From assembly GCA_017620255.1 (NCBI GenBank), contig JAFZQU010000024.1:1-64000 (forward strand): a DNA stretch of 64,000 nucleotides, written 5' to 3'. The position numbers were made by a program, and so were the translations under genes. Within the stretch, counting starts at the first letter, position 1; the number at the start of each line of letters is the position of its first letter. Below are positions 11,128-55,920 of the stretch, in pieces. The stretch is from Lachnospiraceae bacterium (GTDB lineage Bacteria > Bacillota > Clostridia > Lachnospirales > Lachnospiraceae). The notes beneath the pieces are model-generated. The model saw nothing but the letters and a program-made list of their open reading frames with translations. It was not told where the DNA came from and searched no databases.

Positions 11128-11187
11128 AGATCCAACCCTCCTGTTTGAACACCGGCCCTGTATGATTTTGCTTTCGTGAGGTTGCTC

Positions 11188-19297: not shown

Positions 19298-19302
19298 TTT
19301 AG

Positions 19303-19645
19303 TGGACCTGGCGGGAATCGAACCCGCGTCCGAAAGCTCTTCCGTTAAGACTTCTTCCATCACAGTCATTTTACTGTCATTCCCTCTCATGCACGCCAAA
19401 TGACAGGCTTACATGTTCAGTAGCTTCATAAGTTCTTCCATTCCCGCAAAGCTTAGGGAACGAAGTTCCCTGCCTGGTCGATGCCGGATTCTTCAGCAGC
19501 AGGTGACTGAAGGCCGACAGCAGCGATTACGCTGCGAACGCTAACTTATTGTCTGCGTTTATATTTAGTTTCCGTTTGGTGACGCGGAACGGACCGCGGA
19601 TGGCTATCCTAAGTTCTAAACCCCCGTCGAAACCTTTACAGGCCC
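19303..19645 (-). ncRNA. ssrA: Transfer-messenger RNA (tmRNA)
   Basis: About 343 nt. The 5' end GGGCCTG pairs with the 3' CAGGTCC to form the tRNA-like acceptor stem. The T-arm GCGGGTTCGATTCCCGC and the 5' GGTTTCGACGGGGG signature are present. The CCA tail is not encoded (discriminator A at 19303 is followed by CTA). The mRNA-like part reads GCA GAC AAT AAG TTA GCG TTC GCA GCG TAA (19556-19527), giving the tag ADNKLAFAA, whose LAFAA end fits protease recognition. tmRNA rescues stalled ribosomes with SmpB, encoded just upstream. Confidence 0.95.
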
Positions 19646-29878: not shown

Positions 29879-29976
29879 GTCATTTCCTCCGTCTCGTAAT
29901 GAGAATTTTAAAGTAAATCTGTTTCTATCATAAAACCTGCCATGCAGATTGTAAAACAAAATACCTCAGCCTAGTG

Positions 29977-30130: not shown

Positions 30131-33100
30131 TTATTCTGCAGCTGCCCGTTTCTTCTTTTTGTGGTTCTGGATGCAGATCACCACGATCATCGAAATGCTT
30201 GCTACAAGCAGTAACAGCCACAGTGCGATATTCGCTGCATCGCCGGTCACAGGACCAACTCTTACACCCAGTACGCCGCTGGTCGGTTTCGCTCTTACAC
30301 CGAGCACATCAGATACCTTCGTGCTTCTGCGCGCGCCTGCTACGGATGAGCCGCCGCCACCGCCGCCACCGCCGGTCGTGTAGTCGTCGTAGACTTCGGT
30401 CTCTCCGTCGTCTCCGCCGCCACCGCCACCGGTGGTATCATTGGTGATCGTGCCAAGGTCTACACCGATGGATCCGGTTGATGTGGAGTCGATCTTGAAG
30501 GTGTATACCAGCGGATCGCCGTTTACGTCTCGGTTCGTCTTGTATCCGCTCGGAGCCTTTGTCTCGATGAAGTAGTAATCATCGTAAGGCAGCCCGCTTA
30601 CACGGATCCTACCGTCAGAACCTGTTGTGTATGTACCATACCTGTAATATGCATCCGAGAATACCGTGGATGCTGCAGCCTGGCCGACTGTCTTAGGTGT
30701 TGCGGAGTACAGTTCAAATACTGCGCCCGAGAGCGAGGTTCCGCTTCTCGAAGTCTTGTGCAGCGATACAGAGCCTGTCAGTCTCTCATTCAGGTAGGTG
30801 ATCGTTACTTCCGGAATCGTATCACCCTTCTTAGGAGGATCGATCGTGAAGGACATGGTCTCCGTACTCAGCTTGTATCCTGTCGGTGCCTTGGTCTCCT
30901 TGAAGTAATAGGATGCACACGGCAGTTTCGAAACGGACAGCGTACCTGCGGAGCTGACCGCCAGCGATGTGCCATTGGTCGTATCCTCTGTGTATTCATA
31001 ACTTCCGGTGGAGCCTGTTACATGTACAAGCTTGCCGTCGGATGTGTAGAGGGCAAATACCGCGCCGCTTAAGGTATCTCTGGTTACCGCATCACGCTTG
31101 GTCAGCGTTACTTTGCCTTCTAACGGAGGATCTTCCACCGTCATCAGGTCGCCGTCGATCTGGAAGTGTGAAGCATTCTTGTCGTCAACGATCAGCTTGT
31201 TGTTCTCATCGATCTTAAACTCGATCGGTTCGATCTTCAGATAGCCTTTCGGTGCTTCCACTTCTTCCAGGATATAGGTCCTGTTAAAGGTCAAGCCTTC
31301 AATATACTTATCATCTTCCTTCTTGGATCCTGTTGTCCACGAGTCGACCTCTTTCTTGGTCTCCTTGTCAATAACTCTCATCTTTGCACCAGGCAGGATC
31401 TTGCTGCTTGTCATATCGGATTTGCGAACCCTTATGTGACTCGGCGTATTTTCAAAATCATTACCCGTGTACTTAATGAGTCCTCTTGTTGTATCCGGTG
31501 TGATCGTGTAGCCGCCATCCTTCAGGTTGGCTTTTGCCGTATCATTGGCCGGTTTTGCTTCAGACTTGTAACCTCCAAGGTTCGTTAAGTCTTCTTCCAC
31601 TCTGTAAGTGATCAGCTGACCTTCATCATCATACTTCGGCAGCTCCTTAAACTCATACTTGTTGCCTGCCGCGTTCTTCATCGTGTAACTCTTGAGGAAC
31701 GTCTTGGTTTCCTTACCCGCTGCATCTTTGCCGATCTGGTAGAGGTTGAACGTCACTTCCGGAACCTTGGTCGGATCCGCATTCTGCCATGTCTTGACAC
31801 CATCGATCGTGATGTATTCAGGTTTAATCTTATTGGTAACTGTTACATCTTTCACACGGTCACCATTCTCGAGCGTCATGATCTGGCCGTTGAAGTCAAT
31901 CGAGATCGCATAATCACCGGTCGCGCCTTCCTCTTTCAGCTCGTACTTATACTTATGGCCATCCTGTGTCTGGTCAAAGTCGTACTCGTACAGGTTTCCG
32001 AATGTAAATGTGTAATTGTCATCAGCCGTCAGAGTCTTGCGGTAACCTTCCATAGCCTTGTTATCACGGTAAAGCTGAATGGTTACTTCCGGTCTCTCCT
32101 TGACGGATTTGTCATACGGATCCTTCCACAGTTTCTTACCTCTGATCGTGAACGGATCGTAGATCGGTTTGTTCGTGATCAGCGTGCCGTTGGTTCCGTA
32201 AGGCTTGCCGTCTGTACCGTAGATGACCTCGAACTTGCCGTGGTCTTCACCCTTGGTAGGATTCTCCACGAATGCGTATTCGATCTTGTTGTTATTGTCA
32301 TCATAAGCCGGCAGTTTCTCGAATGCGAAGTGTACTTCACCCGCCTTCGTCCAGTTGATCACGATATGGCCTTTTTCAGACTCATGATACTCTACCTGCT
32401 TGGGCTCTTCCGGATTCTTTGCACCGTATCTGATCGTTACGTAGTAGTCTGCCTTGTTGTCTCCATCTTTATCGATGATCGTTGCTACTCCGTCCTTATC
32501 CAGGGTTGCCAGTGCGATATCAACATTGACATATGCACTCACATCGTCTTTGCTGAGTTTCTTCAGAGCTTCTCTTAAGCCTTCATCCGTATCAAGATCG
32601 ATCACAGCGCCATCATCGTTCTTAAAGAGGATCCACTTCTTATCGCCTTCGATCCTTGTGTAGCGCTCGTTGTTGACAAAACTGTCACCGATCTTTCTGC
32701 TTACCAGGACATCTTCCAGACCATTCAGGTCTTCTTCGAGCTCGTAGGTGTATTCCTTTGCTTCGCCTGTTTCCGTCTTATAGTGGAACTGCGGCAGATC
32801 GTCAAAGGCATACTGTACCTTCGATGTCGAAGGAACGATACTCATGGACCTGTAGTAATTGTCTTTCGTCTTCTCCGGACTGCTTACGGTCTCATCCTGA
32901 CCCACATACATCTTGACGTTCTGGTCATCCGTATAGTAGCGGTAGAGTTTGATATAGATCTTCGCGTTCTGTGCCTGAAGCTGTGCAGCAAGTGTCGGAG
33001 TGATATTCCATGTCTTGACACCTTCCTTGCTAATCTTTCCGAACTTGGTGTTGATGATCACGAAAGCGTTCTTGCTGTCTTTCGCCATCGATTCAGGCAT

Positions 33101-36100
33101 AGCCGTTACTTCCAGAGGCTGTTTCGCTTTCTCATAGCCGTCCGGTGCTTTTGTTTCCACAACGTAATACTTGACGCCCTGGCGCAGGTGTTTGCCTGCA
33201 TTCAGCTTGATCGCTGTAAAGTTTGCGCTCTCATACGGCTCATGCTCATAGATATATGCGATCTTGCCGTCACTCGTCCAGCTTGCAAGTACTTCGTACT
33301 GACTGCCTGCTGAAGTTCTGAGTTCCAGTTTCGCGCCTTTCAGTTTACGTCCTGCATCATCCTCCTTGCTGACAATGAGTGCCAACGGTTCGTCCTTCAT
33401 GGTGATCAGACGGATCTTTTCACCGTTTTCATCTTCTATAAAGTCAGCAACCTCAACATTGCCCTTCTCATCGATCGTAAAGGCCATGTCGTCGGACAGA
33501 TCGTATCCTTCCGGTGCTTCTTCCTCAACCAGCCAGTATTCCTTACCGCGCTGCAGGAGGCCGTCATCGCCTTCCACAGTACTGATGCTGATCAGGGTCG
33601 GAGCTGTTCCGGATACCCATCCTTTGATCTTCTTGCCGCGCTGCTCGCCGATCTTCTCATAGATGGCAAGTTTCGCTCCCTTCAGTTCATCCTGGCCCGT
33701 CAGAGCCTTCTTGCTGATATAGATCTTGATCGTTTCATCCAGCATTTCCGTCTCGTAGATGCCAAGCGTCTGATTGTACTCAGCCTTGTTCGTATCTACG
33801 GTGAACTTCTGGTCTGCGGCGATCTTATAACCTTCCGGTGCTTCCAGCTCTCTCAGTGTATATGTGTCTCTCGTATTCAGTTTGACGCCGTATACAAGCT
33901 GGTAATCCTTGGCCAGTAATTCATATTTCTCCTTGGCGGAAGCAGCTGTGGCTTCTTCTCTGGTTACCGGTACGAGCAGTGCCGGCTGATCCGTTGTCCA
34001 GAAGGTTTCGTTTACTTTCTTGTCCCCGTCGAATACATTCAGTTTCGCGCCCGCCAGAGCCTTATCCTCTGTCTTATCCTTCTTGGTGATCTTCACATAG
34101 ATCGGTCTGTCGTACATGATCAGCAACTTCTTATCAGTTGTGACCGTACCGGTGGAATCGCCTGTGGATTCATACAGTTCGATCTCGTTGTCGTTGTTTA
34201 CCGTGAAGGCGATGGGAGCTGCCTTGAAATATCCTGCAGGTACGCCTGTCTCAACCAGGTAATATACATGCTTCGTTCCGTTGGAAGCTTCCAGCTTACC
34301 GGTGATCTCATGTGCCTCATTCTGGTCGGTAGCTGCCGTTGTCCAGGAATCGATGTAACGTGCGTTTCCGTTGCCCGCTTTATACAGGTCATAGTTCGCC
34401 TTATCATAGATCGCAAGTGTCGCGCCCGGCAGATATCTGGTGGTGCCAAGCTCTCTCTTTGTGATCTTGACGCCTGTGGTGTTATCCTTGACGATCACCA
34501 GCGGAACTTCTCTTACCGCACCGCCGTCTGTAACGGTCTTAACAACCGCATTCTCAAGGGTAGCCGCTGTATAAACAGGTTTATCATCCACAACGGTTCT
34601 GTTGTAAAGCGTTACATTGCCGGCTGTATCTACGCTGAAGTAGATGTCTGCCGTAACTGTGTAGCCTGTCGGAGCCTTTGTCTCGCTGATCCTGTAAATC
34701 TCAGGATGCTCAGGATCCGTTGTTGCCGTCAGGCCGCCGAATTCCTCTCCGATCTCAATGCGCTTCGCAGTCTTCGTGCTTGTCCACGTGATCAGAGCTG
34801 TCTTGCTTTCTCCTTCGAAGATTGCCATTTCGGCACCTTCTATCTCAGACTTGCCTGTGATCTCCGTCTTGGTGATGTCAATACGGATCGGCGGGTCTGA
34901 CATGGTCACTTCAGCAGTCTGAACACCTTTGCCGATGGTCTTTGCTTCGTGATTCGGTCTTGCAAGGAGCTTGTAACCCTTCGGCGGAACGATCTCGTCG
35001 AAGTAGTATGTACCCCATGCCAGTCCGTCTACGAAGATCAGGCCTTCTGCATCTGTTTCATGGTCTTTCGTTCCGTTTACGGTGATGATCTCGTCTGCGG
35101 GATCGCTTCCGTTTGCAACACCCGGAACATCATCTCTTTCGCCTGCTACCTTGTACAGGTTAAAGACTGCTCCCGCAAGCGGCTTGCTGTCTTTGCCTGT
35201 CTTCTTCAGTTTCAGGCTGCCCGTCTGACGTTCATTATCAACCGTATCTACGGTATTGGTCGTCAGCGAGTATGTATTGTCATCGTTCTTGGTCGCTTCC
35301 GTTAATACAGGAGCAACGGACTTGCTGACGCTGTCCTTGGTGATCTCGAATACGAATGCACTGTCAACCGGTACATAACCCAGTTTTTCAGCACTGGCCG
35401 CATCCTCGAGGAAAGCGTATTTTCCAAGCGGCAGACCATTCACCATAGCTACGCCTGCAGCATTGGTGTCATAGGAACCGTAGTACGATCCAAGGCTTAA
35501 CTTGCCTTCCGCTTCATTGATCCTGTATAAATGGAACTTAACGCCTTCAACAAACTCACCGCTGGTAATGTCTTTCTTCGTGATCTTCGCGTATCCTCTG
35601 TAGGAGGTGTTGATGAACTCCGTCACAAAGCGGAACTGCGTGAAGCTCGGGGATGCCGCGTTCATTTCATGGATCACATTATCCTTCGTGCAGTTCTTGT
35701 CAATGTTGAAATATCTCGGTTCAGGATCTGCTTCATAGCCAACGCCATCCGGCACGCTGCTTTCAACGAATGCATATCTTCCGTAAGGCAGCGGTCCCAG
35801 GAGGTCTGTCATGAATTTACCGTCATCCAGAGCATGTACAGGGAATTGCGTTCCCTTGTTCATGCCGTAGGTAAGTTCAAGCGGATCACCGATCAGTTTG
35901 TCTTCCGTATCCACACGATAGATGGAGAAGGTCAGATAGGTCTTCTCGCCGTTCTCGTTTGTGGTTTCCACAGCCGTATTGACATTGCCTTCACCGAGTT
36001 GCTCAAACTTCTTGTACAGTGCGGTGTAGCCGTAGCCCTTCTTATTGGTCACGGTTGTGTAAGGATGCATCATCTTATCGTAATCTTCATCGGATAAGAT

Positions 36101-39100
36101 CAGGGTTACATCCGTATAAGTCTTGCCGCCGATGCGTCCGACATCCAGGATCTCGGGCTTGTCGGTGGACTTTTCAAAGCCTTCCGGTGCCTCTGTCTCG
36201 TAGAAGTAGTACTGTCCCCAAGGCAGATCCGGTACTTCGATCACACCGAGTTTATCCTTATCATAGGAGGACTCAAGATTCAATGCCACCGGTTCGTCCG
36301 CCGGATCGTTTCCTTCCGGTTTTTCAGGGGTCGGATCCATCTTGCCTTTCAGCCTGTAGAGATTGAATTTCGCGCCGGCCAGCAGATTTTCGGTACCTGC
36401 TTCGGTATCCTGTCCCTTCTTGATCAGTTTGACGGAACCCGGAAGTTTCTTGTTGGTCACTTCACACAGATCATATTCCAGTTCCACAACACCGTCTTTC
36501 TCGCCGAGATAGAACGGTTTCTCAATCCTTGCTTTTTCTTCCGCCGTCAGTTCATATCCCTGCGGTACGGTCTCAACAAAGTGATAGGTACCCCAAGGCA
36601 GGCCGGAGATCTCTATCGTTCCGTCTTCTTCCGTTGCAACGGTTGCGTAGATCGTTCCGTTTTCACCTGTTTTCAGATTCTTCAGCGCGGACTTTAAGAG
36701 TGCCAGTGCATCCGCACCCTGTGCATCGTCTGCATAAAGTGTGAAGATAACGCCCTTGATAGGATCGCCCTTCTCGTCCACCTTCTTCAGTTTCACTTTA
36801 CCAAGCTCCGGCGTATTAACGATGGCGCCAAGCTGGGAGTCCTTCGTTAACAGGACTGTTTCTTCGCTGGTGATGCTGAAGTGTACGCCACGGTATGTAA
36901 AGGCAGCGTCGGACTTGGGATCCACATTTTCCACATGTCCTTCATATCCCTCAGGTACAGCCTCTTCCAGATAGTAACTGCCGTACGCAAGTGATTTTTC
37001 AGGGAAGGTGAAGAATCCGTCTTTGTTGGTCGTGAATATGCCGTGCTCATCCGTATAAGGCTGCATCACGATCGGGTCTACACCGGTTGTGGTGGTGCCG
37101 ATGGTCTCCGGATGCGTTCCCTTGTACAGCTTAAAGGATGCCACTACAGGCGCTTTCTTTACGCTGTCCACCTTCTGCAGTTTCACGGAGCCTTTGATCT
37201 TGCGGTTGATGATACCCTTGTCCAGATCTTCCTTGGTCTCATCCTCGTTTCTGCCCACGAGATCCACATGCAGACCCTCTACGTCAAACGCCTTGCCTTC
37301 GGACTTAAGAGCATGTCCGATCTTGACTGTGCGTTTGCCGATGTACTTGAAATATCCTTCCTTGGGTTCGCCCTCTGTCAGTTCGTAGATACCCCAAGGC
37401 AGGTTGTTAAATTCTACAAAGTAGTTGCCGTTCTCATCCTTCTTCGTTGTCTTGACATCTGTATAGGATGTAACAATGTCGGATGTCCCTGCAACCAGCT
37501 TCAGCGTGAATTCCACGCCTTCGCCGTTAAAGTCTTTCTCCTCGTCATCGAAGAACTTCTGAACGGTCAGGGAGCCCGGTTTACGTTTGTTGACCGGCAT
37601 TACCACTTCGATCTTCTCAGGTTTTTTGAAGGTATCCCTGTCGATCGTAAACGTATATTCTGCCGCATCCCCTTCGTAATCATCCGGAACAGTCTCTACA
37701 AATACATAACTCCCCCACTCCAGATCGGAAACCTTGATGACACCCGATTCCGATCCGACCGTAGCCGTCACGAAGGAGTCTTCCGTTCCTCTGGTAACCG
37801 GCGTTCTGCTGTCATCTTTTTCGATCTTGTACAGTTTGAACGTTACGTTGTTCATCGTACCGATCGGGTTGTAGCCCTCACCTGCGGATTCGGACTCTTT
37901 CTTGACCAGCTTCACGCCGCCCTTTGCAGGCGGGTTGATGAATGCATTCTCGGATGCACTGAACTTGGAGTTCGCCGGTACCTGGATCAGCTCCGTGAGG
38001 TTTCTCGTCTTCGTGTTGTCGCTTGTCAGGATCGAGAAATCATAAACGTTCGTATCCAGTTCATACGCGTCATCCGGCGTGGAAACTTCCTCGATCGTGT
38101 AATCTCCGGCCGCAACAAACTTCGCGCGTACGATACCGTGTTCGTCACCTTCCGCCTGGGATTCAACCGTCCAGGACGCATTCGTTGCTTTGTTTGTGAT
38201 CTTGTAAACAACGCCGTCTAAGCCATTCTTCGCGCCATCCAGTTTTCTGAAGAGGATATATGCGTAGAAATCATTCGGGCCGTTTACCCAGGTTAAGGAG
38301 TTCGAAGACTGTTCCTTGTCTTCCGGAGCCTGATCGACTGTCACTACGAACGGACCGATCATATCTGTCTGCATCGTGTAAACGATGGTCTGGCCGTCCA
38401 CGGTTACCGGATCGGGTTCCTTTGTCTCCTGCATGTAATACTTCTTATCTTTGCCGCAAGGCAGTCCGGTCACTTTGATCTTACCGATCGTAACACCCTG
38501 CTGCTCACCCGGGGATACCAGCGTCTTGGTATAGCCTTCGGTTTCCTGTGCCTTCGCAAGATCCATGGAAACATATGCATAGACACCGGGTGCTGTTTCT
38601 TTTACATATACCTGTTTTTCTTTCTTGTTACTGTCGGTCCCCTGGAACAGTTCAAACTCTGCTCCGCTTAAGCCGTGACCCTTGTCATCGATCTTCCTGA
38701 GGCCGATATTACCGTGAATGTTCTGGTTCACGATCACGCCAAGATTATATTCCAGATGGGACTCATCCGTCATATTCTCAGCACCTACATATACACCGTT
38801 TTCATCCGGGATATAGCCGGTCATCAGCTGGTAGCCTTCCGGAACTTCACGCTCGATCAACCGGTACTGTCCCCAGGCAAGTTCCTTGATCTCGATCTCG
38901 CCCTTCTTTGTAACCAGATTGAAGAAGGAAAGCAGTCCGCCTTCACCCGTTACATAATAGCCGGTCTCCGCATTTTCCGGATTGTTGATCTTGATCCAGT
39001 TGCCGTCCTTATCCTGTTTCTGCAGTTCGAATGCAACGCCGGCAACAGCCTTGCCCTTGTTGTCTTCCTTCTTCAGGGACAGTTTGCCCTTCTTGCGTTC

Positions 39101-42100: not shown

Positions 42101-45100
42101 GCGGTAGAGTTCGAAGCGGATGCCTGCAATACCCTCATTGGTATCCGCATCGCGTTTTACGATCTTCGCGGAGCCGACCTTGATATCATTGTCGATCATC
42201 TGTACGGTCTTGCCGTTCACATCCACGAATTCGTTGATATCCAGCAGCAGATTGCCGTTCTGGCCTTTGCCTACCGTAAAGCGATAGTGATTTTCATCCT
42301 TGTCGGCAAATACATAGACTTCCTTGCCGTCATATCTCACGGTCGCATTCTCGACGAAGTAGTAATCGCCCCACGGCAGATCGTTTACGGTCAGAGTCTG
42401 GTTGATCGTATCCCATGTACCGAAGGGTACAAAGAATTCCGTATCATCCGCTCTCTTTGCGTATTGTCTGTCATTCAGCTTGAACTCTTTGGAGTTCGTC
42501 ATCAGCGTGAAGTTGGCTTCGCCAAGCAGATAAGCGATCTTGGAAGCGGAAGTGATCTCGTTTCCGTTCTTGTCAACAAAACGCTTCTTCAGTGTCACAT
42601 GACCGAATTCCGGTTCATTCTTGACATAGTTGCTGATCAGGTCAATGATCTGATCTGCTTTCAGTGTGCGTCCCTTCTGGAGCACCACTGCTTCCACATT
42701 CTCCAGTGTCAGGTCGTTCCTGCCGTTGAATCCCGAATCTACTTTCAGGTAGATCTTCAGCGGTTCGTCGTCATAGAGATGTACATACCCCTCTTCTGTC
42801 GTTGTCTCTTCCAGAACATAGGTCCCTGCCTTGGCAAACGGAACGCTTACAACACCGTTTGTAGCCGGGATGTTCTCATAGATCGCGTCGCCGACCTTGG
42901 CGCCCTTATATCCGTTTGTTTCATATAAGGTAAACTTAGTCTGTTCGGACAGTTTCTTCTCGGGATCGAAGGCATTCACTTTCTCGAAGGAAAGCCTTGC
43001 CGCGAAGGAGTCGTTTTTAACCTTGATAGCCACATCGTCCGCTGTCAGATCGATCACCGGCTTGTCCGCAGTGGCGGTTGCCGCATCCAGCGTGAAGGGA
43101 TAAGGCTGTCCTTCCGTATATACGTACTTATCGGTATCCGGGGATTTCTTCTCAAAGAAGTAGTAGGTTCCGGGTGCCAGTTCATCAACGATCAGTTCGC
43201 CGTTTACGGTCTGCATTCTTGTCAATGAGGATTCCACGGCAAATCTGTAGCTGCCGTCAGCGACTTTGCTGACAAATACATACTTGCTCTCATCCGTAGG
43301 ATCAATGGATGTGCTCAGTACGAATTCCGCATTTCCTTCCGGGATCTTGACGTCTTTGGCGTCGGTCTTGATCAGCTTGATCTTGCCGCTGATCTCTTCG
43401 TTAACGAATACGCCCTGCTTCTTTAAGATATACTTGGCGCCTCCTATCAGCTGCGGTTCTGCCGCATTCTGATACCATGTCTCATCCACGGTAAATCTGA
43501 TCGGCTCTTTCGGGGAGTAAAGGACCGTACCCTTCTGGGCCGTGGTCACCGGATCCTCCTCGAGCCTGTATGTATGTCCGACCTTCAGTCCGTCGGTGAA
43601 GTATCCATACCCCCTCTTATCCTTCTGAACGGTGGTAATGATCTCATATTTCTTATTGTTGTCTGTCTCGTCGTACAGGAAGAACTTATATCCGAGTACA
43701 TCCGGATGCAAAACGGTTCCGCTGGGTCTGCTGGACATAATGTTCTTTTCGATCTCGATCGCAACAGGAACGCGCTTGTTGTAAACCGTGAACTTCAACT
43801 GCATGCCGTTGATGCTTGCGTCACGTTTCACATTGGCGTTTTCCGCACTGATCAGCTCGGTCTTTTCTCTTGTAACATTGAAATAGATGTTTTCTGTGTA
43901 CGCTACGAAGCCGTTTTCGTACGCATCCGGCAATCCCGTTTCCTTCAGATAATATTTGCCTACCGGAAGGTCTTTCACTTCAAAGGATCCGTTGGCATCG
44001 GTCTCGATAACGGTATTTTCACTGGCCTCGCGGGTCGCGTAAGTATAGGAGCCGTTTGAACCTGTGACATAGACCGGATCATTGCCTGTGGTCTTGATGA
44101 TGAACTTAACGCCAGCAAGCGGGAACGGAGATTCATCCCCGAGTCCTGCCATCTTGACAACCTTCAGGGTTCCCTTCTCACGCTTGGTATTCTTGATCTT
44201 AACGGTCTTCTTCAGGTTGCGAAGGGTCAGGGTTGTGCTGTTGTCCTTTCCGAGTCCTTCATAAACGATCTGATAATCATCGCTGTCGTTGATGGGCTGC
44301 CCGTTGGCATCCGCCTCATATACGTAAAGGACACGGTCCAGAGGCATCGGAGCATAAGTGATCTGGTTGTTTCCTTTTACTTTCTGTACAGCCATGGAGG
44401 CATCCAGGCACTCACTGCCATCCAGCGCATAGTAAACTCTGGAGCCGTTTGTGTCCTGGCTGTAAACGATCACATAGAATTCTTTGTCATTATCAACGGC
44501 CTTATTATTCCAGTCTTTCGCAACTTTCTTGATGGTCAGTTCGCCGGGTGTATATTTATTGGTAAAATCAAACGGGCCCGGATTGTCATAGCAGGAACCT
44601 GCCTCATTGGTCAGGGAGATCCTGTCATGCAGCTTGACGGTGTACTTATGTGTCCAATGGTGGTACATGCTGTCCACAAGGACTTTCAGGTGGATGGTCT
44701 TCTCCTCATAGGTAACACCGTTGACCTTATTATCCGGAATGACCTCCTTGATGGTGTACATGTAGTTTCTGTTCCATACTTCGATGGGGGTTGCATCCGT
44801 ATAATAATTCGAGGTTAAGTTAAAATCAGCATTCGTAAAGTAATGGCTGGTGATCTTTCCGTCATCATATGCCATCATGTCAAAGTAAACCCGGCCAAAG
44901 GTATCTTCTCTCTTATCCTTTGTCAGCGTGAGTTCACAATAGTTTGTATCCTTGACATATGTCTTGTCCGGCAGGGGACCATACTTGATGGTACCTGCGT
45001 TGGCCGACACATTGCCGCCGTCAAACTGTGTGAGTCTGAAGGTGAAGGTGGCGCCGTCCGGCCAGTCGTAGCCGGACTGGTCAAAGAGTTTCTTCACGTC

Positions 45101-48100
45101 AAAATCATACGGAATGCTCTTCTTTTCCGTATTGTCAAACTCGACCTTGTCGCAGTTCGAAGGCTGATTGATGAGCATCTGCTCCCTCTGGCCCTCGGGT
45201 CTGTCCAGGTCAAAGGTGGCAATGTAACGAAGCTTGGCCGTCAGTCTCTTGGTTCCCGTAACATCGATCGCCACAATATACTGGGTCTTATCATAGACAT
45301 ATCCACCCGTGACTTCACGCTCGACGACCTTGTATTTATAGGTGCCCGCCTTCTTGAAGGTGAGGGTCTTGAAGGTGATGGACGAACCGTTGTTCTGCAC
45401 GGAATCAACCAGCGTGTTGTTCTTCATGCCATCCGGCTGGTTGCCGTATGCATACAGATCAAACCAGAATTTCTGGTTGGTGTTCGGAGTCTTTCCGTCT
45501 ATGGTCTTTTTGCCGTAGATCGTGAACTTGCACTCGGTGCTGGGCGGCATCTTGTTCCATACGTTGTGCCACTCATTGCCGCCGATCTTTGCGATCTTGT
45601 CTGCGATCACCCAGCCCGCGGATACGACGCCGTTCGTGAATACAGCATTGGGTACCAGATGAACGCCGTCCGAAGATGCCCCGCCCTGACCGGCCGTTGC
45701 AGCAACCTTTGCATAAGGCGCGTTGAAGATTATGCTTTGGCAGATCAGATCCTCATCCGCGCCCGCATGCGTCCCTGTCCATCCGCTGTTACCGATCTTG
45801 ATCTGATACTGCGTAAAGGAAACCTTTTCATCAGGGATATTGAAGATGATATTCTGGGTTTCCTTCATCTTAATATGAACCTGGCTGTCCTGATTTCTGT
45901 CGCCGGAGCCGAAATACTTCGCAAAGTCACCTTTATCAAAAGTAATGTAATAGGTTCCGTCCGGGCAGTTTGACAGATCAAGTGTATAGAAATTATTATT
46001 GGCATCTTTCTGGGCTACCTTCTTAAAGTTGTAAGAGGCTCTGTTATAAAGCTCAAGGCTCTTTTCCTGCGCGTCACTTACCAGCTTGGATACCATATTC
46101 TGGATATACGGCTTGTCATAGGTCGTATAGTCAACAATGGTTCCATGCCCCTCGGCATTTCCTCCATTGTTGCCATTCATGTCAAAGCCCATCCGGTTCC
46201 AGACAGCCTGCGTTGTATAGATCAGCAGCATGCTGTCCTTGTTGTTCTCACCGTTTCTCTCGTAAAGCAGATCGCTTCCGTCATAGTCGCCGATATAAGA
46301 AACGCCTGCGGCACCGCCGCTGTTTCTGCCGGACTTGATCTGCGCATTTCCATGCAGTGTGCCCACAGCCATGGTGGATTCCAGGTCGCCCGCAACCGTC
46401 ACTTCGTTACCGACAATACCGTATAATACCGCATCGCCCAAAACGGTCTCAAAGGTTTCCCGTGTACCCGGAGCCATCTTGCCGTTCACCAGGGCTGCTA
46501 CCGGAGAGAACTCGGAAAGCGTGAAGTCAAGGCTCTCTTTACCGGAGGCATTATCTACGACTTCCACTTTGACATCGGCTGTTGTGATGTCCGTTGCTTC
46601 TTCCGTTGTATCCACATTCTCTTTGACAGCATCCGTCAGAGGAAGATGTACAACCGTTACCTCGTTGTCGTCTGTAAGACCCAGCTCATCTTCCAGCTGG
46701 TTCTTCTTGAAGTTGAGGCTGATCTTCACGGAGCCGTCTGCGGGCTGCAGTTCCTTGCGGTTTCCGTCTTCGTCCGTGATAAAGAAACCGATATCGTAAA
46801 GCAGGACATTGCTCTCATCGATCGCAGGTGCGTCCTCATCGCTTTCGTACCCGAGGATCTCTTCCGCGTTCTCATTCAGTGCCTGCATGTAAACATCGTA
46901 ATTGTACCCTTCCGATTCAGCTGTGATGGGGGTTACGATAAACTCCGCATCATCCGGGATGGCATTTGCATGCTGCAGGGTTGCGGTAACGGATACCTGG
47001 TCATCCTCATATTCGTAAACGGATTTCTTCCCGTCCGAATATTCGAAGTAAACGGTGGCGTCTTCCCGGATGGCTTTCCATTTCTCGCCGTCTTCCGTGT
47101 AGAAGTACGCATATCCGTTCTCGCCGTTTTCATCTGCCATCTCTTTGCGCTTCAGGGCTTTGATGACTTTCTTGTCGATCCTGGATTCTACGTAGGTGTA
47201 TTTAATCAGTCTGTCTGTGCCGTTTTCAACCTCAACGTCTTCCACCGGTGCTTTTTCGGCATCATCCAGCGCAAGAACATCCTCCGTGAACTCCGGAAGT
47301 TCCATGTCCTTGTAATCATCACTGATCTCATCACCGAACTGGTCAACGATGGTTGCCTTCAGTTCCGTGACTTTGCCTGCTTCCTCGGGATTGAGGGAGC
47401 CGTCCATGTTCAGGCTCATGCGGAGTGCTCCGTTCTCAACGGATTCCACAAAGTACTCGGCGCCGACTGCGGCGTCGTTTTCGCCTGTGATGTATAATTC
47501 GAATTCTGCTTTATCTAAATTGGAGAGATAAATGTCTTCAATGTGGTTGGATAATGTTTCAATGACATTGTCGGACAGCGTCCTGCCGTCATACTTCACA
47601 TCCGCTTCCGTATCAATGTGCAGTGCGTAATAGGTGTCATCCGGGAGTTCCGCCGGATCTACGGTGATATGAAGCTCCGTGTAGCCCTCGCCGTATACAA
47701 CCTGTCCGTCAGCTTCCAGGGACTTCTTCACTTCCGGTTCGGGTTCGGATTTCAGAGTGATCTGGGGATATCCGTCTTCACGAAGGGCATATGCGACTTC
47801 CATACCCGGGGAGATGGTGTCTACCCACAGTTCGAACAGCCCCTTGTCAAGACCCGCGATGTTATAGATGCCGCCGTTGCCCTTTTCCATGGTGCCATAC
47901 AGGGCATCCTCCATGAAGGGGATGGCGGAATCGGTGAATCCGAGCTTGAAGTGGTCGCCGTCTTTCATCTCGTCCGTATTGATATATACGGTGAAATCAT
48001 CGACAGATTCCACACGGATCCTGTCACTAAGCGCCTCTATAGACGCAGAAACAACACCGGCATCCTCTTCGCCCGTGTCTTCCAGGTAATCCGTATTCTC

Positions 48101-48340
48101 TTCGCTCGCCGCTTCCTCCGGGATCTCCATATCGTCCGCGACGATCTCTTCATCCTCCGGCGCGCTTTCTTCGGAAACGCTTGTTTCGGCAAGTACCTCT
48201 TCCGGTTCGGAAACAGCTTCCTGAACCGTTTCTTCCGGGGTTCCCACCCCATCCATCGAAGCGTAAACGCTTACTGTGTTTTCCGCCAGCATTGCGACTA
48301 AAGCCAGCAATGCAACGGCAGTTCTCAGCCACTTTTTCAT
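30131..48340 (-). CDS. Giant sortase-anchored SpaA/Cna-B repeat fibre protein (6069 aa)
   Basis: A single 18.2-kb uninterrupted gene; GGAGAG precedes the ATG. Signal peptide 1-28, then an acidic Glu-rich segment to about 95 and beta-rich N-terminal region to about 630. About 634-925 resembles a choice-of-anchor-A (CAA) adhesin domain. About 930-1255 has two pilin isopeptide-linkage (FctA/Spy0128-like) modules (FKKAGTYKYKVVE; YTIKEVIPD). From about 1386 to 5090 run 29 tandem SpaA-type prealbumin-fold domains averaging 128 residues, each with a Lys strand (GKxxLxKxD), GAxFxLY and an E-box such as LPWGTYYFxE. Four Cna-B-type domains follow (about 5100-5630), then three more SpaA domains. Glycine-rich linkers, sorting motif GPVTG (cleavage after Thr6032), membrane helix and KKKKR tail end the protein. 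Lys and E-box Glu placement predicts isopeptide cross-links. It is probably a very long covalently anchored fibre, served by the sortase gene upstream. Confidence 0.9.
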   Translation of the reverse strand: MKKWLRTAVALLALVAMLAENTVSVYASMDGVGTPEETVQEAVSEPEEVLAETSVSEESAPEDEEIVADDMEIPEEAASEENTDYLEDTGEEDAGVVSASIEALSDRIRVESVDDFTVYINTDEMKDGDHFKLGFTDSAIPFMEDALYGTMEKGNGGIYNIAGLDKGLFELWVDTISPGMEVAYALREDGYPQITLKSEPEPEVKKSLEADGQVVYGEGYTELHITVDPAELPDDTYYALHIDTEADVKYDGRTLSDNVIETLSNHIEDIYLSNLDKAEFELYITGENDAAVGAEYFVESVENGALRMSLNMDGSLNPEEAGKVTELKATIVDQFGDEISDDYKDMELPEFTEDVLALDDAEKAPVEDVEVENGTDRLIKYTYVESRIDKKVIKALKRKEMADENGENGYAYFYTEDGEKWKAIREDATVYFEYSDGKKSVYEYEDDQVSVTATLQHANAIPDDAEFIVTPITAESEGYNYDVYMQALNENAEEILGYESDEDAPAIDESNVLLYDIGFFITDEDGNRKELQPADGSVKISLNFKKNQLEDELGLTDDNEVTVVHLPLTDAVKENVDTTEEATDITTADVKVEVVDNASGKESLDFTLSEFSPVAALVNGKMAPGTRETFETVLGDAVLYGIVGNEVTVAGDLESTMAVGTLHGNAQIKSGRNSGGAAGVSYIGDYDGSDLLYERNGENNKDSMLLIYTTQAVWNRMGFDMNGNNGGNAEGHGTIVDYTTYDKPYIQNMVSKLVSDAQEKSLELYNRASYNFKKVAQKDANNNFYTLDLSNCPDGTYYITFDKGDFAKYFGSGDRNQDSQVHIKMKETQNIIFNIPDEKVSFTQYQIKIGNSGWTGTHAGADEDLICQSIIFNAPYAKVAATAGQGGASSDGVHLVPNAVFTNGVVSAGWVIADKIAKIGGNEWHNVWNKMPPSTECKFTIYGKKTIDGKTPNTNQKFWFDLYAYGNQPDGMKNNTLVDSVQNNGSSITFKTLTFKKAGTYKYKVVEREVTGGYVYDKTQYIVAIDVTGTKRLTAKLRYIATFDLDRPEGQREQMLINQPSNCDKVEFDNTEKKSIPYDFDVKKLFDQSGYDWPDGATFTFRLTQFDGGNVSANAGTIKYGPLPDKTYVKDTNYCELTLTKDKREDTFGRVYFDMMAYDDGKITSHYFTNADFNLTSNYYTDATPIEVWNRNYMYTIKEVIPDNKVNGVTYEEKTIHLKVLVDSMYHHWTHKYTVKLHDRISLTNEAGSCYDNPGPFDFTNKYTPGELTIKKVAKDWNNKAVDNDKEFYVIVYSQDTNGSRVYYALDGSECLDASMAVQKVKGNNQITYAPMPLDRVLYVYEADANGQPINDSDDYQIVYEGLGKDNSTTLTLRNLKKTVKIKNTKREKGTLKVVKMAGLGDESPFPLAGVKFIIKTTGNDPVYVTGSNGSYTYATREASENTVIETDANGSFEVKDLPVGKYYLKETGLPDAYENGFVAYTENIYFNVTREKTELISAENANVKRDASINGMQLKFTVYNKRVPVAIEIEKNIMSSRPSGTVLHPDVLGYKFFLYDETDNNKKYEIITTVQKDKRGYGYFTDGLKVGHTYRLEEDPVTTAQKGTVLYSPKEPIRFTVDETWYQNAAEPQLIGGAKYILKKQGVFVNEEISGKIKLIKTDAKDVKIPEGNAEFVLSTSIDPTDESKYVFVSKVADGSYRFAVESSLTRMQTVNGELIVDELAPGTYYFFEKKSPDTDKYVYTEGQPYPFTLDAATATADKPVIDLTADDVAIKVKNDSFAARLSFEKVNAFDPEKKLSEQTKFTLYETNGYKGAKVGDAIYENIPATNGVVSVPFAKAGTYVLEETTTEEGYVHLYDDEPLKIYLKVDSGFNGRNDLTLENVEAVVLQKGRTLKADQIIDLISNYVKNEPEFGHVTLKKRFVDKNGNEITSASKIAYLLGEANFTLMTNSKEFKLNDRQYAKRADDTEFFVPFGTWDTINQTLTVNDLPWGDYYFVENATVRYDGKEVYVFADKDENHYRFTVGKGQNGNLLLDINEFVDVNGKTVQMIDNDIKVGSAKIVKRDADTNEGIAGIRFELYRVKKNETTGKYEVIEKISLNPDKTSADGSLTVTGLEFGTYYFIESKNQDINGYEFDTETQYFFNITEQDEIVDDLTYYVKAENATKTSNDGTILNQPVKGKVSLDKWAIAKDTTDDPEYLYKLAGAKFDLYSDKPSHWYQEIRKRIPFFSNDEDVYKYGEYTTGQGGTLEVTDLPWGTYFFIETEAPEGYVMPADEIDRTYEFIIDGDHLDVHIRRPEGTLKNDELRGKVPVNERLNGSLKLIKENEETKAGMAGIPFRLFRRDGVDTDITATLDGIKNNTNKIDYTFKDGHVETLLVTNAEGEITVENLPWGDYYFKEAEIPEGFTAVTTSSALLTINASNASADATYDATNTAKLINTPIKGNLKLHKVDNAKNGLTGATFDLVRVDNGAYHEVKVSGSAGVYAYTGLESSDYRGTSVLQNITDFVKAIFATKKGKLETNDQAILTVANLPYGHYEVYEITPPDGYEPNAENPVIIRSFDIDGTGDDYDAELEFVNTKVYAGVQFVKTLSGTEELKGAKFILQQFDGEQWTDYDATESAENDFYKEDDKDNTVIGHFTSVVTFSGLPVGRYRIYEVSDCEFAPEAVNTYPYLNADEKEIWSKWDENTDFYYFSVTMSDNGVNNVGLDNYDGTLKNAETVDNTPKKGKAMLMKMEGTTAISGAKFALFKGTSKDGKPVLGNPKTDARLDEITSVNGEVWTSDLNWGDYYLVETETSDTRYFLEKEIEDRVQYHFTIAPDANGNFTRVVTDFVAMQDGKDSKSIKKAENTPIKGKAEFAKRDKETNGLIMSDQITFALYYKATADGEYQRLTRYSGENTLNAANGWIRTNKDLEVGYYYFVELTTADGYETLPENIDDRTKFKFEIKQGDTPDDFEITWDGEVAYYEGNRCVYNTPKPGKVELFKYYVLDTAEVPLANASFTLSGTTTAGKSWSKTISSGTDGVVTFENVPWGTYNVQEVKTPAGYKLPDGVTLPTNIVIDAQHLEHDFRSESDETLKILNERKKGKLSLKKEDNKGKAVAGVAFELQKQDKDGNWIKINNPENAETGYYVTGEGGLLSFFNLVTKKGEIEIKELAWGQYRLIEREVPEGYQLMTGYIPDENGVYVGAENMTDESHLEYNLGVIVNQNIHGNIGLRKIDDKGHGLSGAEFELFQGTDSNKKEKQVYVKETAPGVYAYVSMDLAKAQETEGYTKTLVSPGEQQGVTIGKIKVTGLPCGKDKKYYMQETKEPDPVTVDGQTIVYTMQTDMIGPFVVTVDQAPEDKEQSSNSLTWVNGPNDFYAYILFRKLDGAKNGLDGVVYKITNKATNASWTVESQAEGDEHGIVRAKFVAAGDYTIEEVSTPDDAYELDTNVYDFSILTSDNTKTRNLTELIQVPANSKFSASENAFINPPAKGGVKLVKKESESAGEGYNPIGTMNNVTFKLYKIEKDDSRTPVTRGTEDSFVTATVGSESGVIKVSDLEWGSYVFVETVPDDYEGDAAEYTFTIDRDTFKKPEKIEVVMPVNKRKPGSLTVQKFFDDEEKDFNGEGVEFTLKLVAGTSDIVTSYTDVKTTKKDENGNYFVEFNNLPWGIYELTEGEPKEGYFKYIGKRTVKIGHALKSEGKAFDVEGLHVDLVGRNEDETKEDLDKGIINRKIKGSVKLQKVDSVKKAPVVASFKLYKGTHPETIGTTTTGVDPIVMQPYTDEHGIFTTNKDGFFTFPEKSLAYGSYYLEEAVPEGYEGHVENVDPKSDAAFTYRGVHFSITSEETVLLTKDSQLGAIVNTPELGKVKLKKVDEKGDPIKGVIFTLYADDAQGADALALLKSALKNLKTGENGTIYATVATEEDGTIEISGLPWGTYHFVETVPQGYELTAEEKARIEKPFYLGEKDGVVELEYDLCEVTNKKLPGSVKLIKKGQDTEAGTENLLAGAKFNLYRLKGKMDPTPEKPEGNDPADEPVALNLESSYDKDKLGVIEVPDLPWGQYYFYETEAPEGFEKSTDKPEILDVGRIGGKTYTDVTLILSDEDYDKMMHPYTTVTNKKGYGYTALYKKFEQLGEGNVNTAVETTNENGEKTYLTFSIYRVDTEDKLIGDPLELTYGMNKGTQFPVHALDDGKFMTDLLGPLPYGRYAFVESSVPDGVGYEADPEPRYFNIDKNCTKDNVIHEMNAASPSFTQFRFVTEFINTSYRGYAKITKKDITSGEFVEGVKFHLYRINEAEGKLSLGSYYGSYDTNAAGVAMVNGLPLGKYAFLEDAASAEKLGYVPVDSAFVFEITKDSVSKSVAPVLTEATKNDDNTYSLTTNTVDTVDNERQTGSLKLKKTGKDSKPLAGAVFNLYKVAGERDDVPGVANGSDPADEIITVNGTKDHETDAEGLIFVDGLAWGTYYFDEIVPPKGYKLLARPNHEAKTIGKGVQTAEVTMSDPPIRIDITKTEITGKSEIEGAEMAIFEGESKTALITWTSTKTAKRIEIGEEFGGLTATTDPEHPEIYRISETKAPTGYTVTADIYFSVDTAGNVTLYNRTVVDDKPVYTAATLENAVVKTVTDGGAVREVPLVIVKDNTTGVKITKRELGTTRYLPGATLAIYDKANYDLYKAGNGNARYIDSWTTAATDQNEAHEITGKLEASNGTKHVYYLVETGVPAGYFKAAPIAFTVNNDNEIELYESTGDSTGTVTTDKKLLIMYDRPIYVKITKKDKTEDKALAGAKLNVFDGDKKVNETFWTTDQPALLVPVTREEATAASAKEKYELLAKDYQLVYGVKLNTRDTYTLRELEAPEGYKIAADQKFTVDTNKAEYNQTLGIYETEMLDETIKIYISKKALTGQDELKGAKLAIYEKIGEQRGKKIKGWVSGTAPTLISISTVEGDDGLLQRGKEYWLVEEEAPEGYDLSDDMAFTIDEKGNVEVADFIEDENGEKIRLITMKDEPLALIVSKEDDAGRKLKGAKLELRTSAGSQYEVLASWTSDGKIAYIYEHEPYESANFTAIKLNAGKHLRQGVKYYVVETKAPDGYEKAKQPLEVTAMPESMAKDSKNAFVIINTKFGKISKEGVKTWNITPTLAAQLQAQNAKIYIKLYRYYTDDQNVKMYVGQDETVSSPEKTKDNYYRSMSIVPSTSKVQYAFDDLPQFHYKTETGEAKEYTYELEEDLNGLEDVLVSRKIGDSFVNNERYTRIEGDKKWILFKNDDGAVIDLDTDEGLREALKKLSKDDVSAYVNVDIALATLDKDGVATIIDKDGDNKADYYVTIRYGAKNPEEPKQVEYHESEKGHIVINWTKAGEVHFAFEKLPAYDDNNNKIEYAFVENPTKGEDHGKFEVIYGTDGKPYGTNGTLITNKPIYDPFTIRGKKLWKDPYDKSVKERPEVTIQLYRDNKAMEGYRKTLTADDNYTFTFGNLYEYDFDQTQDGHKYKYELKEEGATGDYAISIDFNGQIMTLENGDRVKDVTVTNKIKPEYITIDGVKTWQNADPTKVPEVTFNLYQIGKDAAGKETKTFLKSYTMKNAAGNKYEFKELPKYDDEGQLITYRVEEDLTNLGGYKSEAKPANDTAKANLKDGGYTITPDTTRGLIKYTGNDFENTPSHIRVRKSDMTSSKILPGAKMRVIDKETKKEVDSWTTGSKKEDDKYIEGLTFNRTYILEEVEAPKGYLKIEPIEFKIDENNKLIVDDKNASHFQIDGDLMTVEDPPLEGKVTLTKRDAVTRDTLSGAVFALYTSDGKLVHVTGSTGSYEYTEDTTNGTSLAVSSAGTLSVSKLPCASYYFKETKAPTGYKLSTETMSFTIDPPKKGDTIPEVTITYLNERLTGSVSLHKTSRSGTSLSGAVFELYSATPKTVGQAAASTVFSDAYYRYGTYTTGSDGRIRVSGLPYDDYYFIETKAPSGYKTNRDVNGDPLVYTFKIDSTSTGSIGVDLGTITNDTTGGGGGGDDGETEVYDDYTTGGGGGGGGSSVAGARRSTKVSDVLGVRAKPTSGVLGVRVGPVTGDAANIALWLLLLVASISMIVVICIQNHKKKKRAAAE
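30242..30307 (-). repeat. Tandem 33-bp duplication of the sorting motif
   Basis: Two adjacent 33-base units encode VLGVRAKPTSG (30307-30275) and VLGVRVGPVTG (30274-30242). Only the second keeps the PxTG core; the first reads PTSG. Confidence 0.85.
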
Positions 48341-48559
48341 ACATTCTCTCCTATTCTGTATGACTTGTTAATAGTGAACCCTTATTAAAAATATACTTCC
48401 TCACTAGATTAAGACGCAAGAAAAGTTCAAAAAGGGGCAAAAATTTGCAAAATAAATTGTATTTTTTCAGATACAATCCTTTTTCCTGTTAATGATTGGA
48501 TAACGACTCCCGATATAACCTTTTCCCACAAGTCTTTCGAGATGATTTTTAATAAACTT

Positions 48560-48619
48560 AAAATATCACATATCGGAGCGATTGTCAAACAATTTTGTCA
48601 CATATTATTTAATTTGTGA
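48560..48619 (-). promoter_or_regulatory. Promoter of the 6069-aa gene with shared 37-bp element
   Basis: TTGACA (48583-48588), 17-base spacer, TATTTT (48560-48565). The region 48583-48619 matches 30081-30117: 17 of 19 bases identical across GTGACA-N7-TTGACA and the same TCACAAA box 30 bases away. It begins right after the srtB stop, so the fibre gene can be expressed independently of srtB. The leader (48341-48559) holds a 7-bp hairpin near 48455-48480 and no ORF of note. Confidence 0.75.
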
Positions 48620-48620
48620 T

Positions 48621-49481
48621 TTATCTGGACGGCGGGTACAGGTAGCAGTCCTGGCTGATCCCATGCACGAAAAACCGTTTTTTCCCGGCCCCGGAGCCCG
48701 AACAGGTGACCAGCGTGACGGTATTATCTTCCTCGTTGGCCGGTGTTTGGCAGTCATAGACCGCGTTTTCACGGGCTGTCCTGACATAGGCGCGGTACTG
48801 CTTCAGCGTCTTGCAGGTCCAGTACATCTTGGAATCCGGCGTATCCAGATAGAACGAATAGATCTTGTAACGGTAGATCCCCTCTTCCCTGAATATATAT
48901 ATGTAGGGATCCTTATCATACAGTTTGTGATTGTTGATGAATTTCCTGAGGGAACCGAACATGGAACCGTTCTTCATATTGTGGCCGTAAATAAACGTGT
49001 TCCAGCTGGTCAGCTGCGGGTCCACCGCGCTGTCCATAAAGATACAGCCCGAACTGTTCTCCGGATCTTCCGGCCTGTATTGCTCGAACGTATGATGCAG
49101 GTAGTAGGTATTGTCCTTGTCTTCCGGTTTCTGGACGACCGGGTAGCTGATGTTCACCGCGCCCACATACAGCCAGGCAACGACTTCCGGATTGACTTCC
49201 CTAAGGCCCTTGAAATCGATCTGCATGTCGGGAAAATCACTCCGCTTGTAATTACGCGCGAACTGATACTTTTCCACGCCGCCGTTCTTGATCTGCTTTG
49301 TCTCTCCGGGCACCCAGTCATCCGGTGCTTCCTCCTCTGCGCCCGTCGTGACATACTTGTTCAGTCCGTCGTATTCGTTTTCCGCTATCTTATATTCCCT
49401 TAAGGTCCTGAACAGCATCACGCTCGCAACAACGATCATAATGCTGGCCAGTACGACCATGATCTTCTGTGTCTTTGACAT
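48621..49481 (-). CDS. srtB: Class B sortase
   Basis: A 286-aa membrane-anchored transpeptidase. An N-terminal signal-anchor (about 6-27) is followed by the sortase barrel. Catalytic residues are visible: His near 167 in FIYGHNMKNGSMF, Cys near 260 in TLVTCSG, and Arg near 268 in GKKRFFVHG. The FGSLRKF helix and the spacing are those of class B enzymes. It should cleave an xPxTG-type signal between T and G and join the protein to peptidoglycan or to another subunit. The only candidate substrate in the window is the adjacent 6069-aa protein (GPVTG), transcribed just downstream, so a dedicated enzyme-substrate pair is inferred. A weak GGAG ribosome site precedes the ATG. Confidence 0.92.
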   Translation of the reverse strand: MSKTQKIMVVLASIMIVVASVMLFRTLREYKIAENEYDGLNKYVTTGAEEEAPDDWVPGETKQIKNGGVEKYQFARNYKRSDFPDMQIDFKGLREVNPEVVAWLYVGAVNISYPVVQKPEDKDNTYYLHHTFEQYRPEDPENSSGCIFMDSAVDPQLTSWNTFIYGHNMKNGSMFGSLRKFINNHKLYDKDPYIYIFREEGIYRYKIYSFYLDTPDSKMYWTCKTLKQYRAYVRTARENAVYDCQTPANEEDNTVTLVTCSGSGAGKKRFFVHGISQDCYLYPPSR

Positions 49482-49547
49482 CCTGCATCTCCGTTATGAA
49501 CCCCGGTTCATTTATTTATTGTTCAGTTTTCGAGAGTGGTAAGATTG

Positions 49548-49603
49548 ATTATATCACGTTTCCGGCCATAATGCAATTATGTCAACTCATGCGTTATGTC
49601 AAC
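49548..49603 (-). promoter_or_regulatory. srtB promoter with paired upstream direct repeats
   Basis: TTGCAT (49571-49576), 17-base spacer, perfect TATAAT (49548-49553). Directly overlapping and upstream are two copies of GTTGACATAA (49577-49586 and 49594-49603), 17 bases apart. Confidence 0.65.
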
Positions 49604-49636
49604 CAATTCGGATTGCGCCGTATTCTTTGTTTCCTG

Positions 49637-49665
49637 TTTTCATTTCGTCCATTGTGTGATATAAC
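49637..49665 (+). promoter_or_regulatory. gpmA promoter
   Basis: TTTTCA (49637-49642), 17-base spacer, TATAAC (49660-49665), divergent from srtB. Confidence 0.5.
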
Positions 49666-49711
49666 TATGCATAGCAATTCACTATACTATAAAGAAACGG
49701 AGATATGAACT

Positions 49712-50458
49712 ATGATGAAACTGGTACTCATCAGACATGGTGAAAGTGAATGGAACAAACTGAATCTCTTCACGGGCTGGACTGACGTGGATCTGTCCGA
49801 AAAAGGCCGCGAGGAAGCCAAGAACGCAGGCAAAGTCCTGAAAGAAGAAGGATATGATTTTGACGTATGCTACACTTCCTATTTAAAGCGTGCGATCCAT
49901 ACGCTCAATATCGCACTCGATGAGATGGACAGAGCATGGCTGCCCGTGATCAAATCCTGGAAGCTGAACGAACGCCATTACGGTGCGCTGCAGGGTCTGA
50001 ACAAATCCGAGACCGCTGAGAAATACGGTGAAGAGCAGGTTAAGATCTGGAGACGTTCCTTTGACGTGAAGCCGCCCGCACTGGAAGAAAGCGATGAAAG
50101 AAGCGCAACAAAGCAGGAAATGTTCCGCGACGTTGACAAGTCCCTGCTGCCGGCAAACGAGAGTCTCGAGACAACGATCGAGCGCGTGATCCCTTACTTC
50201 AACGATGTGATCAAGAAAGACATGCAGGCAGGCAAGCGTGTTGTGATCGCTGCACACGGCAATTCCTTAAGAGCGCTTGTTAAGTACTTTGACAATCTTT
50301 CCAGCGAAGAGATCATCGGCGTAAACATCCCGACAGCTGTTCCGCTTGTATATGAATTCGATGATAACTTCAACGTGATCAAACACTACTATCTCGGCGA
50401 CCAGGAAGCACTGAAAGCCAAGATGGATGCCGTTGCCAACCAGGGTAAGGCAAAATAA
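49712..50458 (+). CDS. gpmA: 2,3-bisphosphoglycerate-dependent phosphoglycerate mutase
   Basis: A 248-aa cofactor-dependent mutase that interconverts 3- and 2-phosphoglycerate in the cytoplasm. The phospho-His motif [10 protein letters not shown] starts at residue 5. [25 protein letters not shown] (catalytic Glu) and [13 protein letters not shown] (second His) are all present, and length is typical. GGAG lies 11-14 bases upstream of the first of two adjacent ATGs. It is single-gene, with its own promoter and terminator, convergent with the exported-protein operon and separate from the gap-pgk-tpiA cluster that supplies the preceding steps. Confidence 0.95.
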
Positions 50459-55872: not shown

Positions 55873-55920
55873 ATCCGCTCCCTCCCAGACATTGTGCGAC
55901 ACAAAAAAACCTCCGATTAT

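Follow-up and report, generated by a model that had tools for sequence, protein, structure and literature searches.

The stretch analysed here, 64,000 nucleotides long (positions 1 to 64,000 of contig JAFZQU010000024.1 from a Lachnospiraceae bacterium, assembly GCA_017620255.1; hereafter, the window), encodes on the reverse strand a giant predicted surface protein and, 280 bases upstream of it on the same strand, a sortase, with no gene in between. The giant gene is one uninterrupted open reading frame (ORF; 30131-48340 (-)) of 6,069 codons that starts with ATG and contains no internal stop. Thus, the original prediction of an intact gene for a protein of 6069 amino acids (aa) holds, and so does, at the sequence level, the proposal that fibre length is encoded in a single polypeptide. 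The product comprises about 39 predicted beta-domains, namely, two FctA, 30 SpaA, four Cna-B and three further SpaA domains, which follow a signal peptide and a head and precede a sorting signal (Table 1).

Table 1. Features of the giant gene and the adjoining sortase gene, in window coordinates
Feature	Position	Strand	Remarks
Signal peptide of the giant	48257..48340	-	approximately residues 1-28; by eye
Head, ice-binding-like beta-solenoid	45539..46477	-	approximately residues 622-934; predicted
Two FctA/Spy0128-type isopeptide domains	44546..45535	-	residues 936-1265; PF12892, two stretches; Lys/Glu/Asn by eye
SpaA stalk, 30 domains	33047..44545	-	residues 1266-5098
Four Cna-B units	31442..33046	-	residues 5099-5633; two by Pfam, two by eye
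Three C-terminal SpaA domains	30455..31441	-	residues 5634-5962
Sorting signal GPVTGD, hydrophobic stretch and Lys-rich tail	30134..30256	-	residues 6029-6069
Class B-type sortase, 286 aa	48621..49481	-	His167, Cys260 (TLVTC) and Arg269 by motif
Promoter-like site TTGACA-17-TATTTT between sortase and giant	48560..48588	-	consensus match only

The Pfam SpaA model (PF17802) scored above the cut-off of 23.1 bits in both halves of the giant (289.9 and 568.4 bits, in 7 and 18 stretches, respectively), Cna_B scored above its cut-off in the second half (2 stretches), and FctA reached 75.1 bits against a cut-off of 22.1 when the corresponding region was scanned alone. Pfam reported neither thioester nor ester-bond domains, the further hallmarks of TIE (thioester-isopeptide-ester) proteins, in the giant. 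The pilin-like modules noticed earlier correspond to the two FctA (Spy0128-like) domains, and the four Cna-B and three additional SpaA domains were recovered as described. The repeated stalk was likewise confirmed, with a small correction: it contains 30 SpaA domains rather than 29, which brings the total to 33.

The SpaA repeats were delimited by cutting at the Lys motifs, so that Lys is present in all 33 by construction; the Glu and the Asn/Asp column played no part in the cutting. Glu was found in 33 of the 33 repeats, and the third position of the triad, among 32 aligned repeats, is occupied by Asn in 26, by Asp in five and by Lys in one. With the Asn/Asp of repeats r26 and s3 assigned by eye, all 33 repeats contain Lys, Glu and Asn/Asp, in agreement with the original prediction of such triads in most modules. 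The repeat segments span 95-152 aa, and none is long enough to conceal a module without Lys. These residues suggest that covalent Lys-Asn or Lys-Asp bonds form within the SpaA domains. The 17-Da loss per domain proposed for such bonds fits the Lys-Asn units, but approximately six repeats (r25-r29 and s1; r26 by eye) resemble Lys-Asp units, for which the loss would be 18 Da. Lys-Asp isopeptide units are the kind employed in protein-ligation tools. The E-box, claimed to be often LPWGxYYFxE, is more variable than that claim implied, starting with LPWG in only 6 of the 33 repeats and with xxWG in 11. A genus-wide count of Asn or Asp ahead of the next Lys (428 N, 73 D and 2 with neither, out of 503) was dropped as evidence because the 13-residue span used frequently contains N or D by chance.

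The nearest orthologue of the giant (genome G010) consists of 6,068 aa and shows 59% identity across 5,898 aligned residues, and each of its 33 repeats is the best match of the window repeat in the same position and order. The orthologous repeats are on average 57% identical, compared to 28% among the repeats within the giant itself. The ratio of nonsynonymous to synonymous substitution rates (dN/dS) is approximately 0.21, with synonymous sites near saturation, and no ungapped direct DNA repeats of 45 bases or longer were found in the gene (seed 14). Together, the collinear orthologue, the dN/dS and the lack of long DNA repeats indicate that the giant gene is old, stable and under selection. 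In an assembly of 48 contigs, a long gene full of repeats could in principle result from an assembly error or from fused genes, and a collapse of several genes had been named in the original prediction as an outcome that would overturn it. Considering that other assemblies contain orthologues of comparable length, that the repeats are collinear and of low identity, and that no long DNA repeats were found, such an artefact appears exceedingly improbable. Periscope proteins contain near-identical repeats that vary in number between strains; the low mean identity of the giant's repeats (28%) speaks against a place among these, and their number is steady in the comparison made, which was across species.

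A search with the head among 61 relatives, 37 of them genomes of the same genus and 24 from elsewhere in the order, yielded matches in 33 of the 37 (some partial) and in none of the 24. In a family-wide sample, the head profile matched 31 of 200 genomes, mostly weakly. Nine of the 29 head matches outside the genus were fetched and checked by pattern, and in eight of the nine, a giant accompanied by a sortase was absent from the fetched stretch. Locus L153, from another genus, encodes a giant of 4,579 aa with FctA, Cna_B and SpaA domains that ends in GVLGERMSPVTGD, adjoined by a sortase with a TLxTC motif. Among 54 loci with distant sortase relatives (L097-L150), a crude pattern detected an ORF with at least two E-box matches only in L100 and L143. 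Among named loci, the closest relatives of the sortase come from uncultured Lachnospiraceae, with sources including yak and goat rumen, and the bacterium of the window is probably a gut inhabitant.

The predicted structure of the head resembles beta-solenoid domains of the ice-binding type, and the head of one relative matches PF20597, which in Pfam is described as a putative ice-binding-like adhesive domain. The window head can be considered similar in fold to this domain rather than assigned to the family; in a sequence search of solved structures, its best matches were only at E 0.11 or worse. Between the giant and its G010 orthologue, identity is 61-72% over the first 900 residues, 47-72% in the subsequent 300-residue bins and 84% in the final 69 residues, so that the head is conserved no less than the stalk. 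The head lacks a known ligand, and ice binding would have no obvious use at gut temperature, which is compatible with the fibre being a structural coat or spacer in which the head caps the rod. Such a non-adhesive role seems improbable, considering the adhesive description of PF20597 and the conservation of the head at least at the level of the stalk. By its modelled fold, the head is a putative adhesive domain.

The sortase was detected by the Pfam Sortase model above the cut-off (48.3 bits), and SrtB enzymes come closest to it among solved structures (2oqw, E 4.4e-25). From these structures and its best-matching model, TIGR03064 (srtB), we call it class B-type, not an equivalog of TIGR03064. 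In all 20 giants that reach the stop codon, VRxxPxxGVLGxR is followed by xPxT(G/A)D, with TPATAD as one variant. The sorting region in the window also contains a near-duplicate motif (30239-30307 (-)), VLGVRAKPTSG followed by VLGVRVGPVTG. Elsewhere in the genome, the DNA pattern for GP(V/A)TGD is matched just once, out of frame within another ORF (the search covered this pattern but not variant signals). A clear sortase orthologue (E <= 1e-70) is present in 34 of the 37 genomes of the genus, and 31 genomes encode both the head and this orthologue. The two genes lie less than 5 kb apart in 19 of the 31, in all 19 cases on the same strand; the sortase precedes the giant in 15 and follows it in four, and as both orders occur, proximity outlives rearrangement. 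Thus, the srtB-plus-giant pairs that the original prediction had suggested looking for do recur in relatives.

Class B sortases can also build pili: in Streptococcus pyogenes, the class B sortase Spy0129 assembles the pilus from Spy0128 (PMC3019223). By analogy, the neighbouring sortase might polymerise the giant or couple it to another pilin, with a different sortase of the genome anchoring the polymer. The giant carries two Spy0128-like FctA domains, and relatives with the second type of stalk (type B, see below) mostly have 18. However, the sortase is far closer to SrtB than to Spy0129 (3psq, E 4.9e-8), no pilin gene was recognised next to it, and none of the four sortases found in the genome is of class C, all of which makes polymerisation quite unlikely.

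The most plausible interpretation, to which we assign a probability of about 0.8, is that the giant is a fibrillar adhesin made of a single chain, locked by isopeptide bonds and anchored through a class B sortase; here, bond formation, anchoring by the neighbouring enzyme, adhesion and the ligand are all inferred. The signal peptide would export the chain, and the beta-domains would fold in series, with a Lys-Asn or Lys-Asp isopeptide bond forming in each with the aid of Glu. These bonds would let the rod withstand pulling and proteases. The C-terminal GPVTGD would be cut by a sortase, for which the class B-type neighbour is the likeliest candidate, and the chain would be joined to peptidoglycan. 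The stiff rod would position the beta-solenoid head well clear of the wall, with a feed particle, the host or a microbial partner in the gut as the conceivable binding target.

Several observations weigh against this interpretation. The structure models, which leave out residues 1-359 of the giant, are of moderate quality (predicted local distance difference test, pLDDT, 66 and 62; template modelling scores, TM-scores, of 0.3-0.46 for the stalk pair), and the window head has no sequence match to PF20597 (choice_anch_A) or any other family model. The match of the sortase to TIGR03064 (E 4e-37, 127.8 bits) is below the NCBIfam equivalog cut-off of 153.75. Furthermore, the genome encodes four sortases, each best matched by the class B model TIGR03064 and each below its cut-off, so that there are three further class B-type sortases. 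Of the original claim that the giant has its own, single class B sortase, the class B-type neighbour therefore stands, but 'single' does not. The two genes are on separate contigs in 12 of the 31 genomes, which is partly uninformative given the fragmented assemblies, and real in some cases: in G025, they would be at least approximately 16 kb apart even with the contigs abutting. Genomes G002 and G005 have the head without an orthologous sortase, G004, G014 and G034 the sortase without the head, and G029 neither. Across the 37 genomes (31 with both, 2 with the head only, 3 with the sortase only, 1 with neither), there is no association between the two (Fisher p 0.30).

Anchoring of the giant by another class B-type sortase, with no partnership between the giant and the neighbouring enzyme, would be compatible with the separate contigs, with the sortase of G004 that has no giant, and with the 5,967-aa giant of G002, for which no orthologous sortase was found. 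We nevertheless regard this as unlikely, because the genes are adjacent in 19 of the 31 genomes, all co-oriented and in either order, and the pairing is repeated in L153 of another genus. The neighbouring sortase is likely to be dedicated to the giant; this is not proven, because of the three additional class B-type sortases, one of which is adjacent to a protein with a signal of its own. That sortase (L162, G000:C35) adjoins a 1,486-aa protein with a C-terminal TPKTGD signal.

The literature searches, with partial coverage of subscription papers, yielded no publication on the giant locus. The adhesin of Mobiluncus mulieris is a 7,651-aa product of a single ORF, with an LPxTG motif, an N-terminal adhesion domain and a stalk of 51 self-cross-linked immunoglobulin-like (Ig-like) domains, of which 33 are Spy0128-type isopeptide domains and 18 have ester bonds (PMC10619420). 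The giant resembles it in having the whole fibre length in one polypeptide, but its stalk is of the SpaA type, with no ester-bond domain detected by Pfam, its modelled head is ice-binding-like rather than thioester, and a class B-type sortase gene adjoins it. In addition, M. curtisii and M. mulieris differ by 21 isopeptide domains (PMC10619420), whereas the relatives of the window giant have a near-constant domain number. Fibrillar adhesins consist of a head, a repeated stalk and an anchor; the giant has the repeated stalk domains and, at the motif level, the anchor, with head binding putative. Among the stalk domains of fibrillar adhesin-like proteins, SpaA ranks second in frequency (PMC8286594), and in fibrillar adhesins it is the domain that most frequently accompanies Cna_B (PMC8286594, PMC9210967). 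In contrast to the giant, with its 6,069 residues, the published positive training set of fibrillar adhesins has a mean length of 1,196 residues (PMC8286594, PMC9210967). Long surface proteins commonly contain isopeptide domains in tandem (PMC12617251). Sortase-polymerised pili (SpaA, BcpA, Spy0128) contain the same domain families and the same isopeptide residues, but their length comes from polymerised short pilins and that of the giant from one gene. Given the M. mulieris adhesin and the fibrillar adhesins, the giant is not a new category, and its description as a little-described system went too far, with a 7,651-aa cross-linked adhesin published and SpaA stalks common. It appears to be a real, conserved, single-chain fibre of the isopeptide type, to which a class B-type sortase is probably dedicated.

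To characterise the stalks across the genus, 30 giants were scanned with profiles of the SpaA and FctA units, which yielded 585 SpaA and 220 FctA matches. Derived from a single giant, the FctA profile overlooks both Pfam-detected FctA domains of the window, so that the FctA counts are lower bounds. The giants fall into two types. Type A giants (11 complete at both ends) have 30-35 SpaA matches, including the three C-terminal ones; the window giant has 34, one of them weak and located over an FctA domain. Type B giants have FctA units followed by three terminal SpaA domains. Among nine complete type B giants, six have 18 FctA matches, one has 19, and two have 12 and 13, and a tenth, cut just short of its end, has 18. 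A type A giant in L080-L081 (G009:C67), cut by the contig end, has at least 7,160 aa and at least 56 SpaA matches. In two genomes (G028 and G035), both stalk types adjoin each other. In a quick tree built from residues 1-1,000 of 29 giants, in which two long branches were flagged and some rows take in part of the first FctA unit, the types are split by one branch with support 99 and one change; therefore, a single ancient exchange or split suffices. The order of the repeats is completely shared within close groups (32/32, 31/31, 29/29 and 20/20 reciprocal best pairs) and slightly to fully shared between deeper groups (up to 22/22). Between the window giant and nine non-sister type A giants, 5-11 of 8-14 reciprocal best pairs are collinear, and because this collinearity is partial, we do not claim genus-wide orthology of all repeats.

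The other neighbours of the giant include a phosphatase, RNase R and large proteins. No pilin domains or sorting signals were recognised beside the sortase at the locus (the search for pilins was confined to this locus). Three large secreted-looking proteins of 2451, 2301 and 1733 aa are encoded at 22604-29959, 11589-18494 and 6031-11232 (-); no sorting signal was seen by eye at their C ends, and the 2301-aa protein has no Pfam match. Two more secreted-looking proteins without a Pfam match are encoded at 50589-53312 and 53329-55902 (-), and C ends much like theirs recur beside the G010 giant locus. The window also contains a transfer-messenger RNA (tmRNA) gene at 19302-19645 (-) with the tag ADNKLAFAA. 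In the 48300-49800 region, there are 8 promoter-like consensus sites, compared to 2.9 expected.

In six type B genomes (loci L050, L052, L054, L086, L087 and L088), a GGDEF-EAL-like gene lies between the sortase and the giant. This annotation comes from Pfam for one gene (L095) and from length and similar sequence for the other five; for G026, the motif test picked up EAL alone. In relatives, a pilin encoded between the two genes was rejected as a candidate, the gap gene being GGDEF-EAL-like in six and a 282-aa ORF in G015. Genome G004 (L068) retains the sortase and a similar GGDEF-EAL-like gene without the giant. A riboswitch for cyclic di-GMP (c-di-GMP) in the leader was rejected as well: Rfam gave nothing above the cut-off in 28000-51000 of the window, where there was one sub-threshold gyrA match, or in the loci of seven relatives. 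CD2831, which like CD3246 is an SrtB substrate of Clostridioides difficile, has collagen-binding domains and is under riboswitch control (PMC4591827); the giant locus differs in that Rfam found no riboswitch in the stretches searched. The placement of the GGDEF-EAL-like gene recalls the c-di-GMP control of C. difficile SrtB substrates (PMC4591827).

What is new is the presence of two alternative stalks between related heads and tails. The number of domains is steadier across species than their sequence, the outcome expected from selection for length, although shared descent would also fit. Tentatively, and with considerable doubt, the giant can be viewed as a genetically measured fibre, in which selection would fix the stalk length while the parts change, and a class B sortase would mount one rod of fixed reach as the single-gene counterpart of the polymerised pilus. 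Related heads and tails are found with either mainly SpaA or mainly FctA domains, which have different isopeptide folds, and the counts stay at 30-35 SpaA (11 complete giants) or 18-19 FctA (8 of 10), even though only close groups share the repeat order completely. The two stalk types make possible a comparative test of selection on surface reach, and the giants supply hundreds of diverse isopeptide-type domains, including a run resembling Lys-Asp units. Most sampled members of the genus encode the length of the fibre in one gene rather than reaching it via polymerisation.
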